Positions 7,216 to 42,554 of a DNA stretch of 43,412 nt are shown in pieces. The translations under genes and the position numbers were made by a program. Origin of the DNA: a virus. How positions within the stretch are numbered: the stretch's first letter is position 1; every line of letters starts with the position of its first letter. The notes beneath the pieces are model-generated. The model saw only the letters and a list, made by a program, of their open reading frames with translations. It made no database searches and had not been told where the DNA came from. The DNA is taken from the IMG/VR virus record IMGVR_UViG_3300033144_001559, positions 1-43,412 of that record. One strand, written 5' to 3'.

Positions 7216-8937
7216 ATGAGTAATGTATTCAGAACCGAGATCGCAGAGACGATCTTTAAGAGTAAGTATGCACACGACCACGCTGAGAATTGGGATGAAC
7301 TCTCAGATACACTCGTAGAGGATGTAGTCAATGGACATATAATTGGGGATGATAAGAAGAATCTGATCCAGTTCCATAAGGATATGAAGTTCATAGCCGG
7401 GGGCCGCTATTTGTATTACGCAGGAAGACCTCATAAGTTCTTCAACAACTGTTATCTGCTTAAGGCGGAGGAAGATACGAGAGAGGATTGGGCTACACTC
7501 AGCTGGAAGTCTGAGAGTTGTCTACTTACTGGTGGCGGCATTGGTGGTGATCTATCAATCTACAGGCCAGCCGGGGCGCCTATTGGTAAGACGGGTGGTA
7601 CAGCCTCCGGGCCGCTACCTAAAATGCTTATGATCAACGAGATTGGTCGGCGAGTAATGCAGGGCGGATCGAGACGGTCAGCAATCTATATGTCCCTTAA
7701 TTGGCAACACGGAGATATCCATGACTTCATGAAGATGAAAGCATGGAATGAGATGTATGTTGCTGGAGCGTTTACTGAGAAGGGTGACAAGGCTACAATA
7801 GCCTACCTGAAGGAGAAGGATTTTGACTATCCGGGGCCGCTGGACATGACAAACATCTCAGTCAACTACGACAATGCCTTCCTTGAGCAAGTGTATCAGA
7901 TAGATGATATCGATACGATCCGCCAGAATTTGCATAGAGGTACCAACCTATCCTTCATGGAGTTACCGAAGACTTACCTCGATAACGTGAGTCGTGCTCT
8001 CAGGAGTGGGGAGCCGGGGATGTCCTTCAACTTCTTTGATAAGGAGAATGAAACCCTCCGGAACGCATGCACTGAGGTTACCTCGGAAGATGACAGTGAT
8101 GTGTGCAACCTTGGCTCTGTTAACATGAGCAGGATCGATACGATTGAGGAGTTTAAGGAAGTGATCAGGCTTGCTTCACAGTTTCTACTGTGTGGTACTC
8201 TGGTCGCTAAGCTGCCCTACAAGAAGGTGTACGATGTTCGTGAAAAGAACCGTAGGCTTGGGCTTGGCTTGATGGGTGTACATGAGTGGTTGCTGAAGCG
8301 TGGGTACAAGTATGAGATGGTACCTGAGTTACGTGAATGGATGGAGGTCTACCGATCAGAGAGTGAGCGCTCAGCTAATGAGCTGGCTGACATGATGGGT
8401 ATTAACCGTCCTGTTGCATACCGCGCCATTGCTCCAACAGGGACTATTGGGATAATCGCCGGAACAACTACGGGGATTGAGCCTTTATTCGCCGTAGCCT
8501 ACAAGCGCCGTTTCCTGAAGGGGAAAGCATGGAGATATCAGTATGTGGTGGATGGCACCGCTAAGATTCTGATTGAGCAGGGAATTGATCCTGAGAACAT
8601 TGAAACGGCACTTGACCTTGCGAAAGACCCGGAGCGTAGAATAGCCTTCCAAGCTGATATTCAAGACTATGTGGATATGGGCATTTCCTCTACGATCAAT
8701 CTCCCTGAATGGGGAACCGAGTGGAATAATGAGAACCGTGTTCGAATGTTCGCAAAAACTTTACTTAAGTACGCCCATAGGTTAAGAGGCTTTACATGTT
8801 ATCCGGATGGTGCGCGTGGAGGTCAGCCTATGACAGCCGTTCCTTATGAAATGGCTACCAGTAACGCGGGAAAAGAGTTTACAGAAGAATTCATTGATGT
8901 CTGTGAATTGACGTCGAGTGGAACTTGTGGAGTATAA
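7216..8937 (+). CDS. nrdJ: Class II (B12-dependent) ribonucleotide reductase
   Basis: A 573-residue reductase that makes deoxynucleotides from ribonucleotides. The active-site set is intact: C79 in FNNCYLL, the N283-x-C285-x-E287 triad (NACTE) and C297 in VCNLGS. The substrate loops SCLLTGGGIGGD and GGSRRSAIYM, and PTGTIGIIAGTTTGIEP near the end, fit NrdJ-type enzymes. No small subunit (NrdB) or class III activase lies nearby, which supports adenosylcobalamin dependence. The C-terminus ends TSSGTCGV with Cys at 563 and 571, a wider spacing than the usual reducing pair. It lacks an N-terminal ATP cone and is short for the family. It begins right after the lysin stop. Confidence 0.88.
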   Translation: MSNVFRTEIAETIFKSKYAHDHAENWDELSDTLVEDVVNGHIIGDDKKNLIQFHKDMKFIAGGRYLYYAGRPHKFFNNCYLLKAEEDTREDWATLSWKSESCLLTGGGIGGDLSIYRPAGAPIGKTGGTASGPLPKMLMINEIGRRVMQGGSRRSAIYMSLNWQHGDIHDFMKMKAWNEMYVAGAFTEKGDKATIAYLKEKDFDYPGPLDMTNISVNYDNAFLEQVYQIDDIDTIRQNLHRGTNLSFMELPKTYLDNVSRALRSGEPGMSFNFFDKENETLRNACTEVTSEDDSDVCNLGSVNMSRIDTIEEFKEVIRLASQFLLCGTLVAKLPYKKVYDVREKNRRLGLGLMGVHEWLLKRGYKYEMVPELREWMEVYRSESERSANELADMMGINRPVAYRAIAPTGTIGIIAGTTTGIEPLFAVAYKRRFLKGKAWRYQYVVDGTAKILIEQGIDPENIETALDLAKDPERRIAFQADIQDYVDMGISSTINLPEWGTEWNNENRVRMFAKTLLKYAHRLRGFTCYPDGARGGQPMTAVPYEMATSNAGKEFTEEFIDVCELTSSGTCGV

Positions 8938-10599: not shown

Positions 10600-11004
10600 A
10601 TGATCGAAACTGTAAAGGACAGTGTGGAGCTTTCCACCGAATTTCTTGACGATCTCTTCGTCGCTATACGTGACAAGTTACCCGGAGATACATGGGTACC
10701 AATAACTAAGGATCATACGAGAGTAATCGCTGGAATCAAATACCTCATAGACTGCCGCTCATACGGAGCAAACTTTGACATCGCGCTTCATCCAAAGATG
10801 ACGCACTTCAAAAAGATATCCGGATTTGAGCCGCCACCGAATGTGTTTGAGGGATTATTCATCACGAATCACTCCGCTTCACACTGGGCTGAACAGACCG
10901 AACTAGGATTAGAAAGACAGAAGAGAGAGTATCTAAAGGCGCAACGAGCTGAAAAGCATCAGCTCCAGCGTGATAGAACACCAAGTAAAAGGAGGAAGAA
11001 ATGA
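10600..11004 (+). CDS. Hypothetical protein with a very basic tail
   Basis: A 134-residue protein starting one base after the previous stop. The first 95 residues look globular, and the tail from about residue 100 is highly basic (KAQRAEKHQLQRDRTPSKRR), so it could touch nucleic acid. Its stop overlaps the start of the dUTPase gene by 4 bases. No family is recognised. Confidence 0.6.
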   Translation: MIETVKDSVELSTEFLDDLFVAIRDKLPGDTWVPITKDHTRVIAGIKYLIDCRSYGANFDIALHPKMTHFKKISGFEPPPNVFEGLFITNHSASHWAEQTELGLERQKREYLKAQRAEKHQLQRDRTPSKRRKK

Positions 11005-11492
11005 TAAGGGAAGAGAATGGAGCAGTGCCTTGCGTAAGGATTGATGAGCCAATCAAGGTAAAGATTTTTGTGGGTGATGCCTATGATATACCTGAGTACC
11101 AGAGTGCTGGTGCGGCAGGGATGGATTTATATGCAAACAATGACGATGCTATTCTGATCCATCCGGGTGATAGGAAACTGATTCCAACTGGTATCAGGCT
11201 CCAGATTCCGGAAGGGTTTGAGGCTCAGATAAGACCACGATCCGGGTTGGTACTTAGGCATGGAATTACAGTGCTTAATACGCCCGGAACGATTGATTCT
11301 GACTACAGGGGTACGGTAGGTGTCATCCTTCAGAACGCAAGTAGTGAAAGGTTTTTTGTAAACAGGGGAGATCGCATCGCACAGATGGTATTCAAGAAGT
11401 ATGAGAGGGCTGACCTCGTGGAGGTTATGACTGTGGAAGAGCTTGAAGACAGTGATAGGGGGAGCGACGGTTTCGGATCAACAGGTAAATAA
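11001..11492 (+). CDS. dut: dUTP diphosphatase (trimeric dUTPase)
   Basis: A 163-residue enzyme that hydrolyses dUTP to dUMP, preventing uracil in phage DNA and feeding thymidylate synthesis. All five conserved motifs are present in order: AGMDLYA (1), RPRSGL (2), NTPGTIDSDYRGTVGVIL with its catalytic Asp (3), GDRIAQMVF (4) and RGSDGFGSTG (5), so it should be active. It overlaps the neighbours on both sides by 1 to 4 bases and sits with the reductase and HD-domain genes in the nucleotide-metabolism group. Confidence 0.93.
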   Translation: MIREENGAVPCVRIDEPIKVKIFVGDAYDIPEYQSAGAAGMDLYANNDDAILIHPGDRKLIPTGIRLQIPEGFEAQIRPRSGLVLRHGITVLNTPGTIDSDYRGTVGVILQNASSERFFVNRGDRIAQMVFKKYERADLVEVMTVEELEDSDRGSDGFGSTGK

Positions 11493-12082: not shown

Positions 12083-12571
12083 ATGGTAATCAAGGTAGAC
12101 GTAACCAAGGAACAACTTAAGGTAGCCGAGGGGCTTTATTCCTTCGGCGCCTTAAAAAATTCGATAACTAAAGGCAAGTCAAACATATATGGGGCGATAG
12201 GTGAAGTGATAGTTCATGATTACCTCGAAGCAAGCGACAGAGTAGTTCAGTTTGAAAGCACAGCCGATTTCGATATGACCGTCAATGGTAAAACTGTAGA
12301 TGTCAAGACGAAACGGACAACTGTGCCTCCATTACCGAATTTTAACTGCTCAATCGCCGCCTTCAACACCAGCCAGAAGTGCGATCATTATATTTTTGCT
12401 CGCGTTTCCGAGGATAAACAGACAGGGTGGATTTTGGGTTATATGCCAAAGGAAGAGTACTTTAAGAAGGCTAAGTTCCGTCGTAAAGGGCAGAAAGACC
12501 CTAAGTTTCCGGCATTCAAGTTTGCAGCTGATTGTTATAATCTTGAAATAAAAAACCTGAAAAGCTTATGA
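12083..12571 (+). CDS. Putative PD-(D/E)XK nuclease
   Basis: A 162-residue protein with a plausible PD-(D/E)XK core: E41 in YGAIGEVIVHDYL, D64 in STADFDMTVNG and D73-x-K75 in KTVDVKTKRT. The order and spacing fit small restriction-like or repair nucleases. It overlaps the radical SAM gene by 4 bases, so the pair is probably coupled in translation. Its role may be host DNA breakdown, Holliday junction cutting or discrimination of modified DNA. These cannot be separated from sequence. Confidence 0.65.
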   Translation: MVIKVDVTKEQLKVAEGLYSFGALKNSITKGKSNIYGAIGEVIVHDYLEASDRVVQFESTADFDMTVNGKTVDVKTKRTTVPPLPNFNCSIAAFNTSQKCDHYIFARVSEDKQTGWILGYMPKEEYFKKAKFRRKGQKDPKFPAFKFAADCYNLEIKNLKSL

Positions 12572-13449
12572 AAATCCAGAGCCTAAGCGTGGTTGTTCCC
12601 GCTAAGAAGTGTGTGAACGACTGTAAGTTTTGTGTATCGAAGATGCATGAGTCTGAGTATGAGAACATGATGTCTGACAAAAATCTGTACTATGATCTTT
12701 ATAAATCCGACTTCATTAATAGGCTTTCCTTTGCGAGAGACAACGGTTGCAACACCGTTATGCTTACGGGAGACTGTGAGCCTTTGCAGAATCGTTCATT
12801 TTGCGCAAAGTTTGGAGACTTTAACCAAGCATTATCCAATCCTTTCAAGGTCATCGAGATTCAAACCACCGGAAATCTACTGACCCCTGACTACCTGTAC
12901 TTTCTCAGGCACCATGTAGGTGTGACTACAATCTCTCTGAGTGTATCTGATATATGGGACAGTGATAATAATGCCGCTATTATTGGGTGCAAGGAGTATT
13001 TTAACCTCGAAGCCCTCTGTGAATTGATCAAGAAGTACCGCTTCAATCTGCGGCTATCCCTGAACATGACGGATTACATGTTTAAGTTTGGCGCTGTGAA
13101 TGTGTACGACCTACTTGATCGTTGTGAGGAGATTAGAGCTGATCAGATTACATTCAGGAGGATGTATGAAAGTGGCGGGTACGGAATGGAAGAACAGTGG
13201 GTTCGTGATTACGACATCGAGGAAGGAGATTGGTCTTCGATATATAATGCCGTTAAAGGTAAGGATGGAGGGGAGTTTGTAGATAGTCTAGAATACGGCA
13301 GGAGTAAGTACGATGTTCGTGGCATGGGTATTGTGATCGATGACGATTGCATGAGTCAGAAAGGCGGGGATGTAGCTAAGTATCTGATCCTTAGACCGGA
13401 TGCTAAGCTGTATAGTAAGTGGGAAACCAAAGCGTCACTAATATTTTAA
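12568..13449 (+). CDS. Radical SAM protein of unknown reaction
   Basis: A 293-residue protein with the radical SAM cluster motif C15-x3-C19-x2-C22 (CVNDCKFC). It continues into the expected barrel: MLTGDCEPL is the GGE-like strand, EIQTTGNLLTP and TISLSVSD are later strands. There is no extra Cys-rich SPASM tail, so only one Fe-S cluster is expected. The substrate is unknown. QueE is unlikely, because that enzyme uses another Cys spacing. The overlap with a nuclease gene makes a nucleotide or DNA-modification role attractive, but this is inference. Confidence 0.78.
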   Translation: MKIQSLSVVVPAKKCVNDCKFCVSKMHESEYENMMSDKNLYYDLYKSDFINRLSFARDNGCNTVMLTGDCEPLQNRSFCAKFGDFNQALSNPFKVIEIQTTGNLLTPDYLYFLRHHVGVTTISLSVSDIWDSDNNAAIIGCKEYFNLEALCELIKKYRFNLRLSLNMTDYMFKFGAVNVYDLLDRCEEIRADQITFRRMYESGGYGMEEQWVRDYDIEEGDWSSIYNAVKGKDGGEFVDSLEYGRSKYDVRGMGIVIDDDCMSQKGGDVAKYLILRPDAKLYSKWETKASLIF

Positions 13450-13880: not shown

Positions 13881-13914
13881 AAAGGGAAACCATTAATTTG
13901 GCTTCCCTTTTTTT
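13881..13914. terminator. Bidirectional terminator between converging arms
   Basis: AAGGGAAACC (13882-13891) and GGCTTCCCTT (13900-13909) form a stem with one imperfect pair, enclosing an 8-base loop. It is followed by a T-run to 13914 for right-going transcripts, and a short A-rich stretch before 13882 serves the left-going ones. It lies in the 84-base gap where the two gene arms converge. Confidence 0.75.
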
Positions 13915-13936
13915 ATGTCCTATTCCTTATTTTAAT

Positions 13937-14443
13937 TTAGTCTAAGTAAGCTTTATCCATGTAGCCATAGAACACGTAGACGAAATCCTGCATCCAGTTG
14001 TGAGGCGTTATCCTACGCCAGAGCCAGTATAGGTTTGGCTTACCGAGCAATGCTCTTCTCCAAGCCCACTTATCGGGCAGGAACATAAAAAAGTTAGGTT
14101 TATATTTACTAATTAGGTCTTCGCGACCTAAATGCACCGCACAACAATAAGCTAATAACCAAGGGTCTTGAGTCATATCGTATTGATCACGCCATGCTGA
14201 AGCGGGTATATGCTCTACCATGTACGTAGGCCAACGCTTACCAGCTCTAAGGCACATAAATACCTCTTCAAGCGCCACATGACACCAAGGCTCGCTCTCG
14301 TCTTTATCGATTATCCCCCTGCATGTATTGTACAATAAGTCTCCATTTCCATCTCCGAGCGAGATATAGAATGGCAGAACCCTAACCTTCTCTTTTGCTG
14401 AATGACCAGCCCTCAGTTCATTCCACTTCTCTACATTGATCAT
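13937..14443 (-). CDS. Conserved phage protein of unknown function
   Basis: A 168-residue protein, rich in Trp and Cys. Its central part (YDMTQDPWLLAYCCAVHLGR) resembles a DPW/DPY motif seen in uncharacterised proteins near the lysis genes of Bacteroidota phages. The start overlaps the stop of the gene upstream (ATGA). This is the last gene of the left-going arm. Function unknown. Confidence 0.6.
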   Translation of the reverse strand: MINVEKWNELRAGHSAKEKVRVLPFYISLGDGNGDLLYNTCRGIIDKDESEPWCHVALEEVFMCLRAGKRWPTYMVEHIPASAWRDQYDMTQDPWLLAYCCAVHLGREDLISKYKPNFFMFLPDKWAWRRALLGKPNLYWLWRRITPHNWMQDFVYVFYGYMDKAYLD

Positions 14444-15090
14444 TTAGCCATCCTCCCCGCTGCATATCCTATTGCTACACTCGCCGGAACAGTGATTAGA
14501 GGATTCTCCCACCACTTCTTTTCGTAGATGACAGTGTAAGATTGTATTCCGGTCGTCTGGATGCATGGATTGGTATTCCGGATCGTAACAATCGATTTCG
14601 TATTTTTCCACCCGCTTTTCTGCTCCCCTATGACAATATCTTGCCTGTTGTGGATAGTATAGTCATTCAGAGACAAACCTCCGTTAAACAGGCTTAAACT
14701 AGCACTGAAGCAATTGTCTGCCAAATTGACAGTAGTATCCTTGTCAATATAGATCGGGACTGACACTTTGACAGTATCGTGAATGTATTTTGTCTCATAC
14801 TTGACCACCTGAGAGAGATTCTTGTAATAAGAGATCAACTCGTCCTGTATACTGTCGTAAGCTAATGCCGCCTTAAGTGATTCGTTGGAGGCATTGAGAG
14901 TTTCCTGCCACACAATCGTTGCGCTATCAACTTCCGAAACATATGTCTCGTACTTGAATTCGTGCTGTGCGATTGTATTCAGGTGTAGATCGATCTGTTG
15001 GTTCTTCCTTCCGTTAAACCAGAAGAAAAAAGCAACAGCCATCCCCAGTACGAGGATAGCTGCTACGTTTACTTTAAATTCTGCTTTCAT
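14440..15090 (-). CDS. Membrane-anchored coiled-coil protein, i-spanin-like
   Basis: A 216-residue protein with an N-terminal membrane helix (residues about 8-25, AAILVLGMAVAFFFWF), a helical periplasmic stem (about 30-95), a beta-rich middle with YIHDTVKVSVPIYIDKDTTV, and a hydrophobic Gly/Ala-rich end (ITVPASVAIGYAAGRMA). The topology and its place near the endolysin suggest an inner-membrane spanin, or a membrane protein of the DUF6808 kind found in Bacteroides phages. The partner could be a lipoprotein such as the one at 13454. Confidence 0.55.
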   Translation of the reverse strand: MKAEFKVNVAAILVLGMAVAFFFWFNGRKNQQIDLHLNTIAQHEFKYETYVSEVDSATIVWQETLNASNESLKAALAYDSIQDELISYYKNLSQVVKYETKYIHDTVKVSVPIYIDKDTTVNLADNCFSASLSLFNGGLSLNDYTIHNRQDIVIGEQKSGWKNTKSIVTIRNTNPCIQTTGIQSYTVIYEKKWWENPLITVPASVAIGYAAGRMAK

Positions 15091-15092
15091 GT

Positions 15093-15338
15093 TTACAACT
15101 TTAAACCATCGGCAGTCGGCTCTATTTTAGTTCCGGTGGATGGGTCTTTGCTACTCGGATACGGATTCTCCGTTCCAAGGCGCTTCAAGTCCATCCCCAG
15201 CCACATGACTGCTTCCTGTAGTTTGGTAATTGAGAGTGATCTTTCCCTTGAGGGGGGCATAAACTTCACACTCTGAATAATAGAATCAATACCTTTCCTT
15301 AATTCTTTGTTTCCTGTTACTTCTTGTTCGTAAGTCAT
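15093..15338 (-). CDS. Acb2/Tad1-like hairpin protein (candidate anti-CBASS/anti-Thoeris sponge)
   Basis: An 81-residue, mostly helical protein. The core SRERSLSITKLQEAVMWLGM resembles the ERSLAxTKLEEAxMW signature of the Acb2/Tad1 hairpin family. Known members bind and sequester cyclic nucleotide signals, blocking CBASS, and Tad1 relatives block Thoeris. It continues with a Pro/Asn/Ser-rich tail ending PTADGLKL, a form frequent in Bacteroidota phages. It is small and soluble and sits in the late arm next to the lysis genes. Whether this version binds cyclic nucleotides is not shown. Confidence 0.68.
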   Translation of the reverse strand: MTYEQEVTGNKELRKGIDSIIQSVKFMPPSRERSLSITKLQEAVMWLGMDLKRLGTENPYPSSKDPSTGTKIEPTADGLKL

Positions 15339-15354
15339 TTGATTTGATTTAAGT

Positions 15355-15489
15355 TTATAATCTCATTGGTTCTAATATTGGAAGTTTCCCGTCATCCAGC
15401 ACTACGCCACATGAAAGGATTGACTTCCGGATGTTATATTTTGCATACGCCAGAGCGTAAGCCTTATCATCGATACCACAACCGATCTC
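15355..15489 (-). pseudogene. Out-of-frame C-terminal tail of the metallophosphoesterase
   Basis: In the +1 frame relative to the main gene, 44 residues read EIGCGIDDKAYALAYAK, then KSILSCGVVLDDG and PILEPMRL before the stop. This is the tail expected of phage metallophosphoesterases (VGCGID...YA...YAK...CGVV...PM). The main frame instead stops at 15467 after WYR. The tail is therefore separated from its gene by a frame change somewhere around 15485-15510. Confidence 0.7.
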
Positions 15490-16084
15490 TATCGACCTCA
15501 GATACGTTCCAGTTGATGTGATTCTGAGTGTGCCAGTGACCCTGAACGATGCTCTTCCTCTTATTGAGGGCTTTACCCATCGCTCCTGCCTGACCTCCAC
15601 CACCTTCTCCGTGAATGTACAACACTCCGTTGTATTCAAACTGCAAGTCGAAGTTCCAGTTCGGAGTTTCCAGCACCTCGTCGAATCCCTTGATCCATTT
15701 CTCTGATACGCCAGCAGAAAATGCTTTCCGTACAATGATCCGGTCATGGTTTCCGAGAACAACGTCCGCTTCCGGGAACGCCTCGTACCAACCAGCGATC
15801 TGATCAATAGCTCTTTGGAGTTCTTCTCCTGCGCTATATCCGTCAGGATCAGTGGAATGGAATGAACTGTAGTGGTTGTCGATAATGTCACCTATGAAAA
15901 TGGTGCGATTGGTTTGGTACTTCTCGGAGATATCTATGCAGTGATCTAAATATCCTTCTTTTATAAATGGTGCGTGTAAGTCACCGATAACTAGTACTCT
16001 CTCTTCTGTGTTCTCTAATCGTTTCTGTTCAATAAATGCCACTTCTGACGGTGTTAACCGCAGTCTCTTTCCGTATTCCTTCAT
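15467..16084 (-). CDS. Calcineurin-like metallophosphoesterase, C-terminus frameshifted
   Basis: A 205-residue open frame with all metal-binding motifs: D35 and H37 (GDLHAPF), D66 (GDIIDNH), N112 and H113 (GNHD), H158 (YIHGEGG) and H183/H185 (GHWHT). Such enzymes split phosphate monoesters or diesters. The phage substrate is unknown; suggested roles include nucleic-acid 3' end trimming and tRNA or nucleotide turnover. The natural end of the protein is found in another frame at 15355-15489, so the intact protein would have about 240 residues. Confidence 0.82.
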   Translation of the reverse strand: MKEYGKRLRLTPSEVAFIEQKRLENTEERVLVIGDLHAPFIKEGYLDHCIDISEKYQTNRTIFIGDIIDNHYSSFHSTDPDGYSAGEELQRAIDQIAGWYEAFPEADVVLGNHDRIIVRKAFSAGVSEKWIKGFDEVLETPNWNFDLQFEYNGVLYIHGEGGGGQAGAMGKALNKRKSIVQGHWHTQNHINWNVSEVDRDRLWYR

Positions 16085-16404: not shown

Positions 16405-16920
16405 TTATTTTGTGTGAATATTCTTTTCCGGAATCCCAACGCTACGACACCATTTCTGCACATTAAAAGAAGGGCAAGCCTTCGCTGAGAAGTCATAATG
16501 TCCAGCTACCTTAATGTCCGGGTGTCTGAGAATCATATACTTAACATAGATTTCCATCGCATGCAGCTGATTTGGCGTGCGGGTATCTGCTGCCATGTAC
16601 CCCGGCTTGTCATCATCATCAAGCGGCGTTTCGTAGTCATATTCCAAGCCACCGACATATACCATATGCCGCGACCTTGAGTTCATTCCTTTAGCGCCCC
16701 AAGTCATTTCCCAGTTATCAACCTTATTGTCCTGATTGAAAGGGGTTAAATTAACGAGAGTTCCGTCCAGATAGATCATGTCAGAGTACCCGACCCTGCT
16801 CCATCCTCTTCCACCCATACTGACAGGACTCTTATGCCATCGCTCAATATCTTCAGCGTCAACATGTCTGCCTTCCGGGGTTGCCGTACAGTGAATAATC
16901 AAATGTGTTAGTTTTCCCAT
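16405..16920 (-). CDS. N-acetylmuramoyl-L-alanine amidase endolysin (amidase_2, T7 lysozyme-like)
   Basis: A 171-residue enzyme from ATG 16920; an upstream TTG in the same frame is less likely. Zinc-site residues are visible: H10 in LIIHCTATPEGR, and the pair in GHYDFSAKACPSF with Cys eight residues after His, the same spacing as H122 and C130 of T7 lysozyme. GWSRVGYSDMI and the DxxTPNQ region fit the fold. There is no signal peptide, so it would need a holin to reach the wall. It cuts the bond between muramic acid and the stem peptide. Confidence 0.88.
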   Translation of the reverse strand: MGKLTHLIIHCTATPEGRHVDAEDIERWHKSPVSMGGRGWSRVGYSDMIYLDGTLVNLTPFNQDNKVDNWEMTWGAKGMNSRSRHMVYVGGLEYDYETPLDDDDKPGYMAADTRTPNQLHAMEIYVKYMILRHPDIKVAGHYDFSAKACPSFNVQKWCRSVGIPEKNIHTK

Positions 16921-16935
16921 ATGTCTGTTTTTTTG

Positions 16936-16967
16936 CAAAGGAAAGCAAAATTATCGAGAAATCCAAG
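16936..16967 (-). promoter_or_regulatory. Weaker promoter-like site before the amidase
   Basis: On the minus strand CTTG (16967-16964), 20 bases, then TTCCTTTG (16943-16936), one base away from TAnnTTTG. The spacer shares TTCTCGAT with the terminase promoter at 39316-39347. It lies in the 65-base gap after the giant virion gene and could raise lysis gene expression. Confidence 0.5.
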
Positions 16968-40767: not shown

Positions 40768-40953
40768 TTATTGTCTTTTAAATCCAAGTGTTTCTTTTTC
40801 CGCTTCAATGTCGGCTTCGAAGGCCATCCCTCTATCCAACACCGGAATCCCAAAAACGTGGATTGTTACTCCTGAATCTTGTTTCTTTATGAGGCCCGAC
40901 TCCTTGTCGAAATAAGTCCTCTTGTCTTTATATCTTCTTTTCCAAATCGCCAT
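40768..40953 (-). CDS. Small basic protein after GroEL
   Basis: A 61-residue protein starting MAIWKRRYKDKRTYFDKESG, with a basic first half and a charged end (EAEKETLGFKRQ). It overlaps the GroEL stop by one base and is one base from the next gene. No family is recognised. Very close spacing supports a single operon. Confidence 0.55.
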   Translation of the reverse strand: MAIWKRRYKDKRTYFDKESGLIKKQDSGVTIHVFGIPVLDRGMAFEADIEAEKETLGFKRQ

Positions 40954-42554
40954 TATGCTCTCTTATCAACTATAACACAATTGGTTGTGATGATCATCCC
41001 CGCCACCGAAACCGAGTTCTTCACTGCTGACTTGATCACCTTTGCGGGATCGATTATGCCAGCCTTATACAGGCTTTCAAAGCTGTCAGTCAAGGCGTTG
41101 TAGCCATAGCTGATATCTTTGGTTACAAACGTGCTCCGCTTTACTGCCTTAATAACGCTCTCTCCATCAATTCCGCAGTTCTGAGCCATCACCCTGAGAG
41201 GCTCCTCCATTGAATCCATAACAATGTTATATCCATCCCTATGATCCTCGCTTACATGCTTCTCACGCCCTCGCATGCACCTTATGTATGCAATCCCTCC
41301 ACCCGGAACGTATCCGTCCTCTAACGACGACTTAGTGGCATGTACGGCATCCTCAATCCGGAAGTAGTTCTCCTTCATTTCGGCTTCTGAGTTTCCGCCT
41401 GCATAAATCACACCTATTCCAGCCGTGAGATTTGCAATACGCTTAGATAGCTTCCAAGCCTTTGTTCCGTCATGATCCTGCTTCTGTTCGTCCTTAATCA
41501 CCGCAACCTGATCAAAGATATCCTCCGGTGCTCCATGCCTACCGATTATAGTAGTGCTTTGCTCGTCGACCACAATACGATCAGCTGAGCCAAGATGCGC
41601 CATTGTAACATCGGTTAATCCGACTTCCCCTACCTCTGAAATTACCGTTGCGCCAGTAAGAATTGCCAAATCCTTCAGTGCATCGGTACGATCTGACCCA
41701 AAATCAGGTGCAGTTACCGCTACAACGGGAAGACCCTCTTTCGTCTTGTTCTGAAGCAGTGTACCAAGTGACTCACCCTCAATGCCGCCACAGATAATCA
41801 GGAGAGGGACTTGCTTCCCTTTATTCCTCATTTCTTCTACTACGCAGTTCAATGCGGGTACCATATCAGTGAAAGGCCCATCGAATACCTTATCGGTAAT
41901 CATAATCTTGACGTCTGAATATTCGGCGGTTTTTCGACCTTCGTTGGTAATGAACCCCGGATGAATCATCCCGGAATTGATCTGACAACCATCCACAACA
42001 CTAACGGAGTTAGACCCAGCCTGTGTTTCCTCAATCCTGATTGCTCCATTCTCACCGACAGAATCAAACAGGTCAGCAATCATTTTACCGATTTTTGGAT
42101 CATTGTTTGAGGCGACGGTGGCAATCTGTTTGGTAGTCTCCTTGTCGGTAACCAGTTTCTTAAGAAACTCAACCTCTTCAGCTAAGTCCTCGGCAGCTAA
42201 ATCCATACCACGCTTTAAGTCCATTGGGTTCGCCCCGGCTTGAACGTACTTCATTGCCGTATTGATCATGAATCGAGCTAGAACTGTAGAAGTGGTTGTT
42301 CCGTCTCCTGCTTCTCTGGCTGTCCTTTTTGCTGCATCACGAACGATATTGATTCCCGCCTGAGCGATTGAATCTACTGAATGTACCTGTGCGGCTACGG
42401 TTACCCCGTCCTTTGTTACTACGTGTTCGCGACCCACATTGAAGATCACGTTACGTCCTTTTGCTCCCAGAGTAGAACCTACGGCGTCTGCGAGAATATT
42501 CACACCAGACATTAATCGATCCCTTGACTCTTCGTTAAATTTGATTTCCTTCAT
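40953..42554 (-). CDS. groEL: Phage chaperonin GroEL
   Basis: A 533-residue group I chaperonin subunit. Equatorial-domain ATP motifs are intact: ADAVGSTLGAKGRNVIF, VTKDGVTVA and GDGTTTSTVLA, with the distal NYFRIEDAVHATKSSLEDG and VPGGGIAY. The catalytic Asp (IEDAVHA) is in place, so it should hydrolyse ATP. The C-terminus ends VIVDKRA, without the Gly-Gly-Met tail common in host GroEL. It overlaps the upstream RepL-like gene by 20 bases. It is probably a late-function chaperone for capsid or tail folding. Confidence 0.93.
   Translation of the reverse strand: MKEIKFNEESRDRLMSGVNILADAVGSTLGAKGRNVIFNVGREHVVTKDGVTVAAQVHSVDSIAQAGINIVRDAAKRTAREAGDGTTTSTVLARFMINTAMKYVQAGANPMDLKRGMDLAAEDLAEEVEFLKKLVTDKETTKQIATVASNNDPKIGKMIADLFDSVGENGAIRIEETQAGSNSVSVVDGCQINSGMIHPGFITNEGRKTAEYSDVKIMITDKVFDGPFTDMVPALNCVVEEMRNKGKQVPLLIICGGIEGESLGTLLQNKTKEGLPVVAVTAPDFGSDRTDALKDLAILTGATVISEVGEVGLTDVTMAHLGSADRIVVDEQSTTIIGRHGAPEDIFDQVAVIKDEQKQDHDGTKAWKLSKRIANLTAGIGVIYAGGNSEAEMKENYFRIEDAVHATKSSLEDGYVPGGGIAYIRCMRGREKHVSEDHRDGYNIVMDSMEEPLRVMAQNCGIDGESVIKAVKRSTFVTKDISYGYNALTDSFESLYKAGIIDPAKVIKSAVKNSVSVAGMIITTNCVIVDKRA

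Follow-up and report, generated by a model that had tools for sequence, protein, structure and literature searches.

A tailed member of the Acb2/Tad1 hairpin family in a Bacteroidota phage, a candidate counter-defence sponge

The virus record IMGVR_UViG_3300033144_001559, analysed here as one stretch of 43,412 nucleotides (the window), carries a short gene whose 81-residue product belongs to the Acb2/Tad1 hairpin superfamily and is probably a counter-defence sponge of some kind. The protein is not simply an Acb2, nor is it a Tad1, and it reads as a new tailed form of the hairpin family. Should the sponge reading hold, a clade of Bacteroidota-phage proteins that is widespread and has no name as yet would consist of counter-defence sponges. 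The missing pocket parts and the invariant tail make the mode of ligand binding directly testable in a protein of only 81 residues.

A preliminary description of the window, made from the letters without database searches, had proposed this open-reading frame with its exact position and length, leaving the strand unstated (Table 1). It is a real coding gene under strong purifying selection: pN/pS lies between 0.11 and 0.25 in all nine comparisons with relatives, with synonymous sites near saturation, and in a frame control (window against relative L001) all five other frames exceeded the true frame, the lowest of them, an antisense frame, giving 0.19. The profile search that had been suggested as a check placed the protein in the Acb2/Tad1 hairpin family: PF24729 matches residues 11–47 with 31.7 bits, above the cut-off of 27 (E 1.8e-7), it is the single Pfam match of the protein, and a DNA search of the window's own record recovered it at 31.2 bits. 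The motif by which the family had been recognised, given as ERSLAxTKLxEAxMW, is present as ERSLSITKLQEAVMW, the fifth letter being S and not A (A, S or T in relatives), and the tail ends in PTADGLKL as described. Amongst PHROGs the protein matches two families of unknown function, and it has no match in PADLOC, a library of defence proteins.

Table 1. Coordinates of the hairpin-family gene, its parts and neighbours in the window, and of fusions and a hairpin gene in related loci.
Feature	Sequence	Coordinates	Strand	Description
Hairpin-family gene (Acb2/Tad1)	Window	15093..15338	(-)	81 aa, ATG start, TAA stop; PF24729
Predicted helical hairpin	Window	15177..15332	(-)	Residues 3-54, motif RERSLSITKLQEAVMWLGMDLKR; AlphaFold2 and PF24729 match
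Conserved C-terminal tail	Window	15096..15167	(-)	Residues 58-81, NPYPSSKDPSTGTKIEPTADGLKL; clade alignment
Downstream gene	Window	14440..15090	(-)	216 aa; hydrophobic at its N-terminus, spanin-like in appearance alone; no Pfam family above cut-off
Upstream gene, calcineurin-like metallophosphoesterase	Window	15467..16084	(-)	PF00149 E 9e-6; phrog_221 E 2.6e-36
Amidase endolysin	Window	16405..16938	(-)	PF01510; phrog_822 E 8.4e-39
RyR-hairpin fusion	L047	4608-5249		PF02026 + hairpin + tail
RyR-hairpin fusion	L060	4557-5228		PF02026 + hairpin + tail; hairpin 25.2 bits, just below PF24729 cut-off
RyR-hairpin fusion	L067	4569-5237		PF02026 + hairpin + tail
RyR-hairpin fusion	L076	3079-3750		PF02026 + hairpin + tail
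RyR-hairpin fusion	L095	5058-5726		PF02026 + hairpin + tail
RyR-Tad2 fusion	L176	2989-3648		PF11195 81.9 bits, PF02026 45.1 bits
Separate PF24729 gene	L176	1798-2121		About 0.9 kb upstream of RyR-Tad2 fusion

Searches against PDB sequences lead to Tad1. With the single protein as query, phmmer returned Tad1 8kbb as the sole match (E 0.023), and a profile of 42 clade sequences placed the same chain first (E 7.4e-7), followed by other Tad1 chains at about 0.05 and by two weak matches to unrelated proteins (E 0.73 and 1.7); Acb2 chains matched in neither of these searches. Alignment by hhalign of a 54-sequence clade profile with T4 Vs.4, Paenibacillus phage Sitara and Mycobacterium prophage prophiGD43A-5 gave a probability of 96.9% (E 1.9e-10). 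AlphaFold2 predicts two helices, residues 3–26 and 31–53, with mean pLDDT of 92–98 in 10-residue blocks over residues 1–50, in keeping with the helical protein of the preliminary description. In the 54 aligned sequences at least 90% of residues are identical in 6 of 16 columns of helix 1 and in 17 of 23 columns of helix 2, and the helix 2 motif reads RENAMAITKLQECLMWLG in Tad1 8kbb against RERSLSITKLQEAVMWLG in the window protein. The fold itself says little: residues 1–56 of the model superpose on Vs.4 17–80 (7uq2, cGAMP-bound) over 56 residues with rmsd 2.2 and Z 7.7, at rank 28 among unrelated hairpins (VIA-align), none of 245 Foldseek matches in the PDB has an E-value of 0.001 or better, and no Tad1 entry is among the best 50 fold matches listed. 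The fold of a two-helix hairpin has too little detail to discriminate, so it is sequence matching that carries the family claim.

Acb2 and Tad1 are described as hexamers in which trinucleotides are bound at trimer interfaces in a central channel, whilst the dinucleotide pockets of Acb2 combine N-terminal and C-terminal portions from two protomers (PMC12043709, PMC10419184); in Tad1, a beta-sheet domain N-terminal to the hairpin lines the gcADPR pocket together with a C-terminal tail (PMC12043709). An N-terminal tyrosine segment before helix 1 is common to Vs.4 (Y8), Sitara and prophiGD43A-5 (F-x-Y-H in the latter two), and the window protein, whose start lies after that point, has none. In Pseudomonas Acb2 we take Tyr11 and Lys26 to be dinucleotide contacts. 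The Tyr3 of the window protein is unconserved (6 of 30), and none of the first ten alignment columns has a residue at 90% across 54 relatives. The N-terminal beta-sheet domain of the Tad1 type is likewise absent from the 81 residues, and because the whole open frame is 89 aa long there is no room for a further N-terminal domain. With both the tyrosine segment and the beta domain missing, the known dinucleotide and gcADPR pockets could not be built in the known way.

Set beside the known proteins, the window protein has its nearest solved sequence in Tad1 (8kbb) and shares the helix 2 motif with it, but it has no beta-sheet domain and the clade tail does not align with Tad1. The Acb2 proteins (T4 Vs.4, 7uq2; Pseudomonas phage p26, 8h2j/8ixz) are stand-alone hairpins of similar size, and Vs.4 belongs to PF24729 as well, yet the tyrosine segment sets them apart and the conserved tail of the clade is absent from Vs.4. 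Sitara and prophiGD43A-5 share the hairpin motif (PF24729 at 89 and 78 bits), whereas both have the F-x-Y-H segment and neither has the NPYP...PTADGLKL tail, Sitara ending directly after helix 2. The Acb2/Tad1-like sponge put forward in the preliminary description is partly supported. The profile match, the predicted hairpin and the Bacteroidota-phage setting speak for it, and the RyR and Tad2 partners of relatives (see below) are a better basis than the one given there; the absence of the N-terminal tyrosine segment and of the Tad1 beta domain speaks against it and bears on the missing pocket residues that the description had named as a ground for refutation.

The tail extends over about 24 residues with the clade consensus NPYPxS..P....IxPTADGLKL; 13 of its 24 columns have one residue in at least 90% of 54 sequences, and P59, Y60 and P61 are invariant. 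In the AlphaFold2 model of the lone chain its pLDDT is low, with block means of 79, 60 and 40 from residue 61. Being conserved yet poorly folded alone, the tail probably contacts another chain or a ligand. A two-helix hairpin brings the C-terminus of helix 2 next to the N-terminus of helix 1, and from this geometry we infer that the tail exits the hairpin on the side that the tyrosine segment would occupy. Its conservation is in part a product of the locus search, two of the six IMG/VR search patterns falling in the tail; as a control, 57 proteins that carry MWLGMDLK but match neither of these two patterns were screened with a fixed pattern, which detected the tail in 56. In L067, the one IMG/VR locus that the fixed pattern missed, the tail is present by eye; L042, outside the hairpin pattern, has it too, and amongst the genome loci it was found by the fixed pattern in 7 of 12 and by eye, with changes, in the other five. 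A tblastn search with the bridging relative L050 returned 51 phage records, the six with at least 80% cover being Bacteroidota phages; nearly all of the remaining listed records match only residues ~7–58, with the tail unmatched. None of the other hairpin proteins examined showed the clade tail, among them T4 Vs.4, Sitara, prophiGD43A-5 and three further viral-contig proteins (L208–L210).

Some relatives stand next to, or are fused to, domains that act on immune signals. In Tenacibaculum phage Gundel_1 a Tad2-like gene (PF11195) lies directly downstream of the hairpin relative, and in L040 a Tad2-like gene directly follows the hairpin gene on the same strand; Tad2 itself is a separate Pfam family with no match in the window record. 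These two are the only ones of 53 records with Tad2, whilst RyR (PF02026) was found in 5 of 54, four of them fusions and the fifth (L042) a separate RyR gene about 6 kb from the hairpin gene. The records are the window, four named phages and, for the two counts respectively, 48 and 49 of 80 IMG/VR loci, those left out being near copies or short contigs and many of those counted being fragments; as the counts come without a proper background set, we claim adjacency and fusion and not enrichment.

The RyR fusions comprise four distinct proteins, 54–64% identical, on six contigs (L046 and L047, which are identical; L060; L067 and L095, 99% identical; L076), with an RyR domain as the N-terminal half followed by the hairpin and the tail in one uninterrupted frame. 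Phage RyR proteins are described as cleaving or sequestering 2'/3'cADPR and so defeating Thoeris (PMC13232231, a 2026 preprint), and this family, named RyDEP there, differs from the window protein in that neither the protein nor its record has an RyR match. The fusions (L047, L060, L067, L076) have His, Trp, His and Asp at the spacing of RyDEP His75, Trp78, His100 and Asp117, a match of spacing taken from the residue numbers in that preprint and not from an alignment to the RyDEP sequence. At the position of RyDEP Gln54, 21 residues before the catalytic His, one of the four has Gln, a conserved Gln lying about two residues earlier, so we claim four active-site positions and not five. Most RyR homologues tested are described as binding without cleaving (PMC13232231), so the kept residues do not show catalysis. 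The main text of the preprint makes no mention of Acb2, Tad1 or the hairpin and uses 'fusion' for tags only.

An RyR domain is also fused to Tad2, in locus L176, where a hairpin gene is encoded separately (Table 1), so that anti-signal genes form a small group there; in the reverse direction, a hairpin was found in 1 of 20 RyR loci examined (20 of the 26 loci L176–L201). From the RyR–hairpin and RyR–Tad2 fusions it seems that phages bring anti-signal modules together within a single chain, and the Tad2 adjacency and RyR fusion in relatives favour a function directed against immune signals made of nucleotides. In L041 (4776–5219) a DUF1508 domain (PF07411) precedes the hairpin in one open frame. 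A model of the L076 fusion built without an alignment was discarded (mean pLDDT 44).

The hairpin gene shares its minus-strand block with genes for the terminase large subunit, virion proteins and an amidase endolysin and is placed towards the end of that block, a position that agrees with the late arm to which it had been assigned. Genes for replication and nucleotide metabolism make up the plus-strand block that faces it. The downstream gene starts 2 bases past the hairpin stop codon and adjoins the hairpin in L001 and L002 also. Upstream, the metallophosphoesterase frame (15355–16084) is broken near its end relative to L001 and L002, where it runs on, reflecting either a real loss or a sequencing error. 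The window terminase is nearest to those of Flavobacterium, Cellulophaga, Maribacter, Tenacibaculum and uncultured phages, all at <60% identity.

Homologues covering most of the hairpin protein were found in 6 of 50,697 phage records, representing four phages, all Bacteroidota or crAss-like. In IMG/VR, 159 stretches matched the search pattern, of which 146 encode a relative and 80 were kept, and 12 genome contigs carry a relative, ten of them under titles of Bacteroidota groups and the other two under titles of an Acholeplasmatales and a Nitrospirae MAG. Homologues, genome contigs and terminase relatives all point to the Bacteroidota-phage setting proposed at the outset. A plasmid search with L050 gave one weak Deinococcus match. 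Hosts of Acb2 are given as proteobacterial 'and others' (PMC12043709), and Acb2 has been called rare and confined to specific phage groups (PMC11722364, a 2024 preprint). A literature search at title and abstract level, its scope excluding the main Acb2/Tad1 papers, found no published report of the tailed clade or of an RyR–Acb2/Tad1 fusion, which is consistent with the earlier remark that this variant had not been tested biochemically.

Neighbourhoods were compared in 92 of 96 loci, those with a hairpin by pattern (L044, L050, L091 and L097, where the pattern missed the hairpin, were dropped), and these form 63 groups of near-identical neighbourhoods. The commonest neighbour family within 2.5 kb occurs in 5 of the 63, and the phosphoesterase, 216-aa and 168-aa neighbours seen in the window were found together in two of the 92 loci only, L001 and L002; other relatives adjoin DNA-metabolism genes, terminase-like genes and others. 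Having no constant neighbour across loci, the hairpin gene seems to travel alone, like accessory genes.

As a sponge, the protein would be made in the infected Bacteroidota cell, where its helical hairpins would oligomerise in the manner of Acb2 and Tad1. This oligomer would trap the nucleotide signal of an immune system such as CBASS or Thoeris, the effector would stay off, and the cell would survive until the phage completes its cycle. The C-terminal tail may close the pocket in place of the tyrosine segment of Acb2 or the beta domain of Tad1. For a trinucleotide site in the trimer channel the hairpin alone should suffice, which makes cyclic trinucleotides the first-choice ligand and a tail-built pocket the second choice. 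The end of the structural and lysis block may be a late position for a counter-defence gene; Thoeris is described as able to sense a capsid protein (PMC12043709). Counting against a sponge, in most relatives no known anti-defence gene is fused to the hairpin or stands next to it, and the window has neither arrangement. The fuller proposal, a third hairpin-sponge architecture whose invariant C-terminal tail rebuilds the pocket, plus two-headed RyR fusions directed against cADPR signals and cyclic oligonucleotides, is put forward tentatively and with some doubt.

A sponge with a changed target is a reading to be taken seriously, if short of the favoured one, and as a sub-case it overlaps with it: the tail would make a site for another Bacteroidota defence signal (for example a different cADPR isomer, a cyclic tetranucleotide or a linear signal), and CBASS and gcADPR signals would no longer be bound in the known sites. 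The loss of the known pocket parts and the clade's own invariant tail would fit such a change, and having Tad2 and RyR as partners suggests signals of the ADPR type (PMC13232231), but the closeness of the helix 2 motif to that of Tad1 8kbb argues that the core site is kept. The partners could also mean that the hairpin is the accessory half of a two-part inhibitor, its oligomer mainly a scaffold that multimerises or positions RyR or Tad2, so that the free form would need a separate partner. The RyR–hairpin fusions, the hairpin–Tad2 neighbours and the occurrence of an RyR domain fused to either module agree with this, yet we consider it unlikely, with no RyR match in 49 of 54 records and no Tad2 in 51 of 53 (many of them fragments), and neither in the window.

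Least probable in our judgement is a function outside anti-defence, in which a small helical late protein with a structural, assembly or lysis-accessory role has kept the hairpin fold. Its place downstream of the endolysin gene and immediately upstream of one whose product has a hydrophobic N-terminus would suit such a role, as would the resemblance of the lone-chain fold to many unrelated hairpins; against it stand the PF24729 match above cut-off, the relatives fused to RyR, and the relatives that have no constant neighbour and lie beside DNA-metabolism, terminase-like and other genes. The counter-defence sponge is our preferred reading.

Elsewhere in the window, the plus-strand block encodes a ribonucleotide reductase large subunit (7216–8937), a dUTPase (11001–11492) and, by a weak match, a QueE-like radical SAM protein (12568–13449). 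Between the two facing blocks lies a likely two-way terminator, recognised by eye (13885–13920; AAGGGAA...TTCCCTT, then a T run). The phage also encodes a GroEL-type chaperonin of its own (40953–42554; phrog_5725, E 5e-126).
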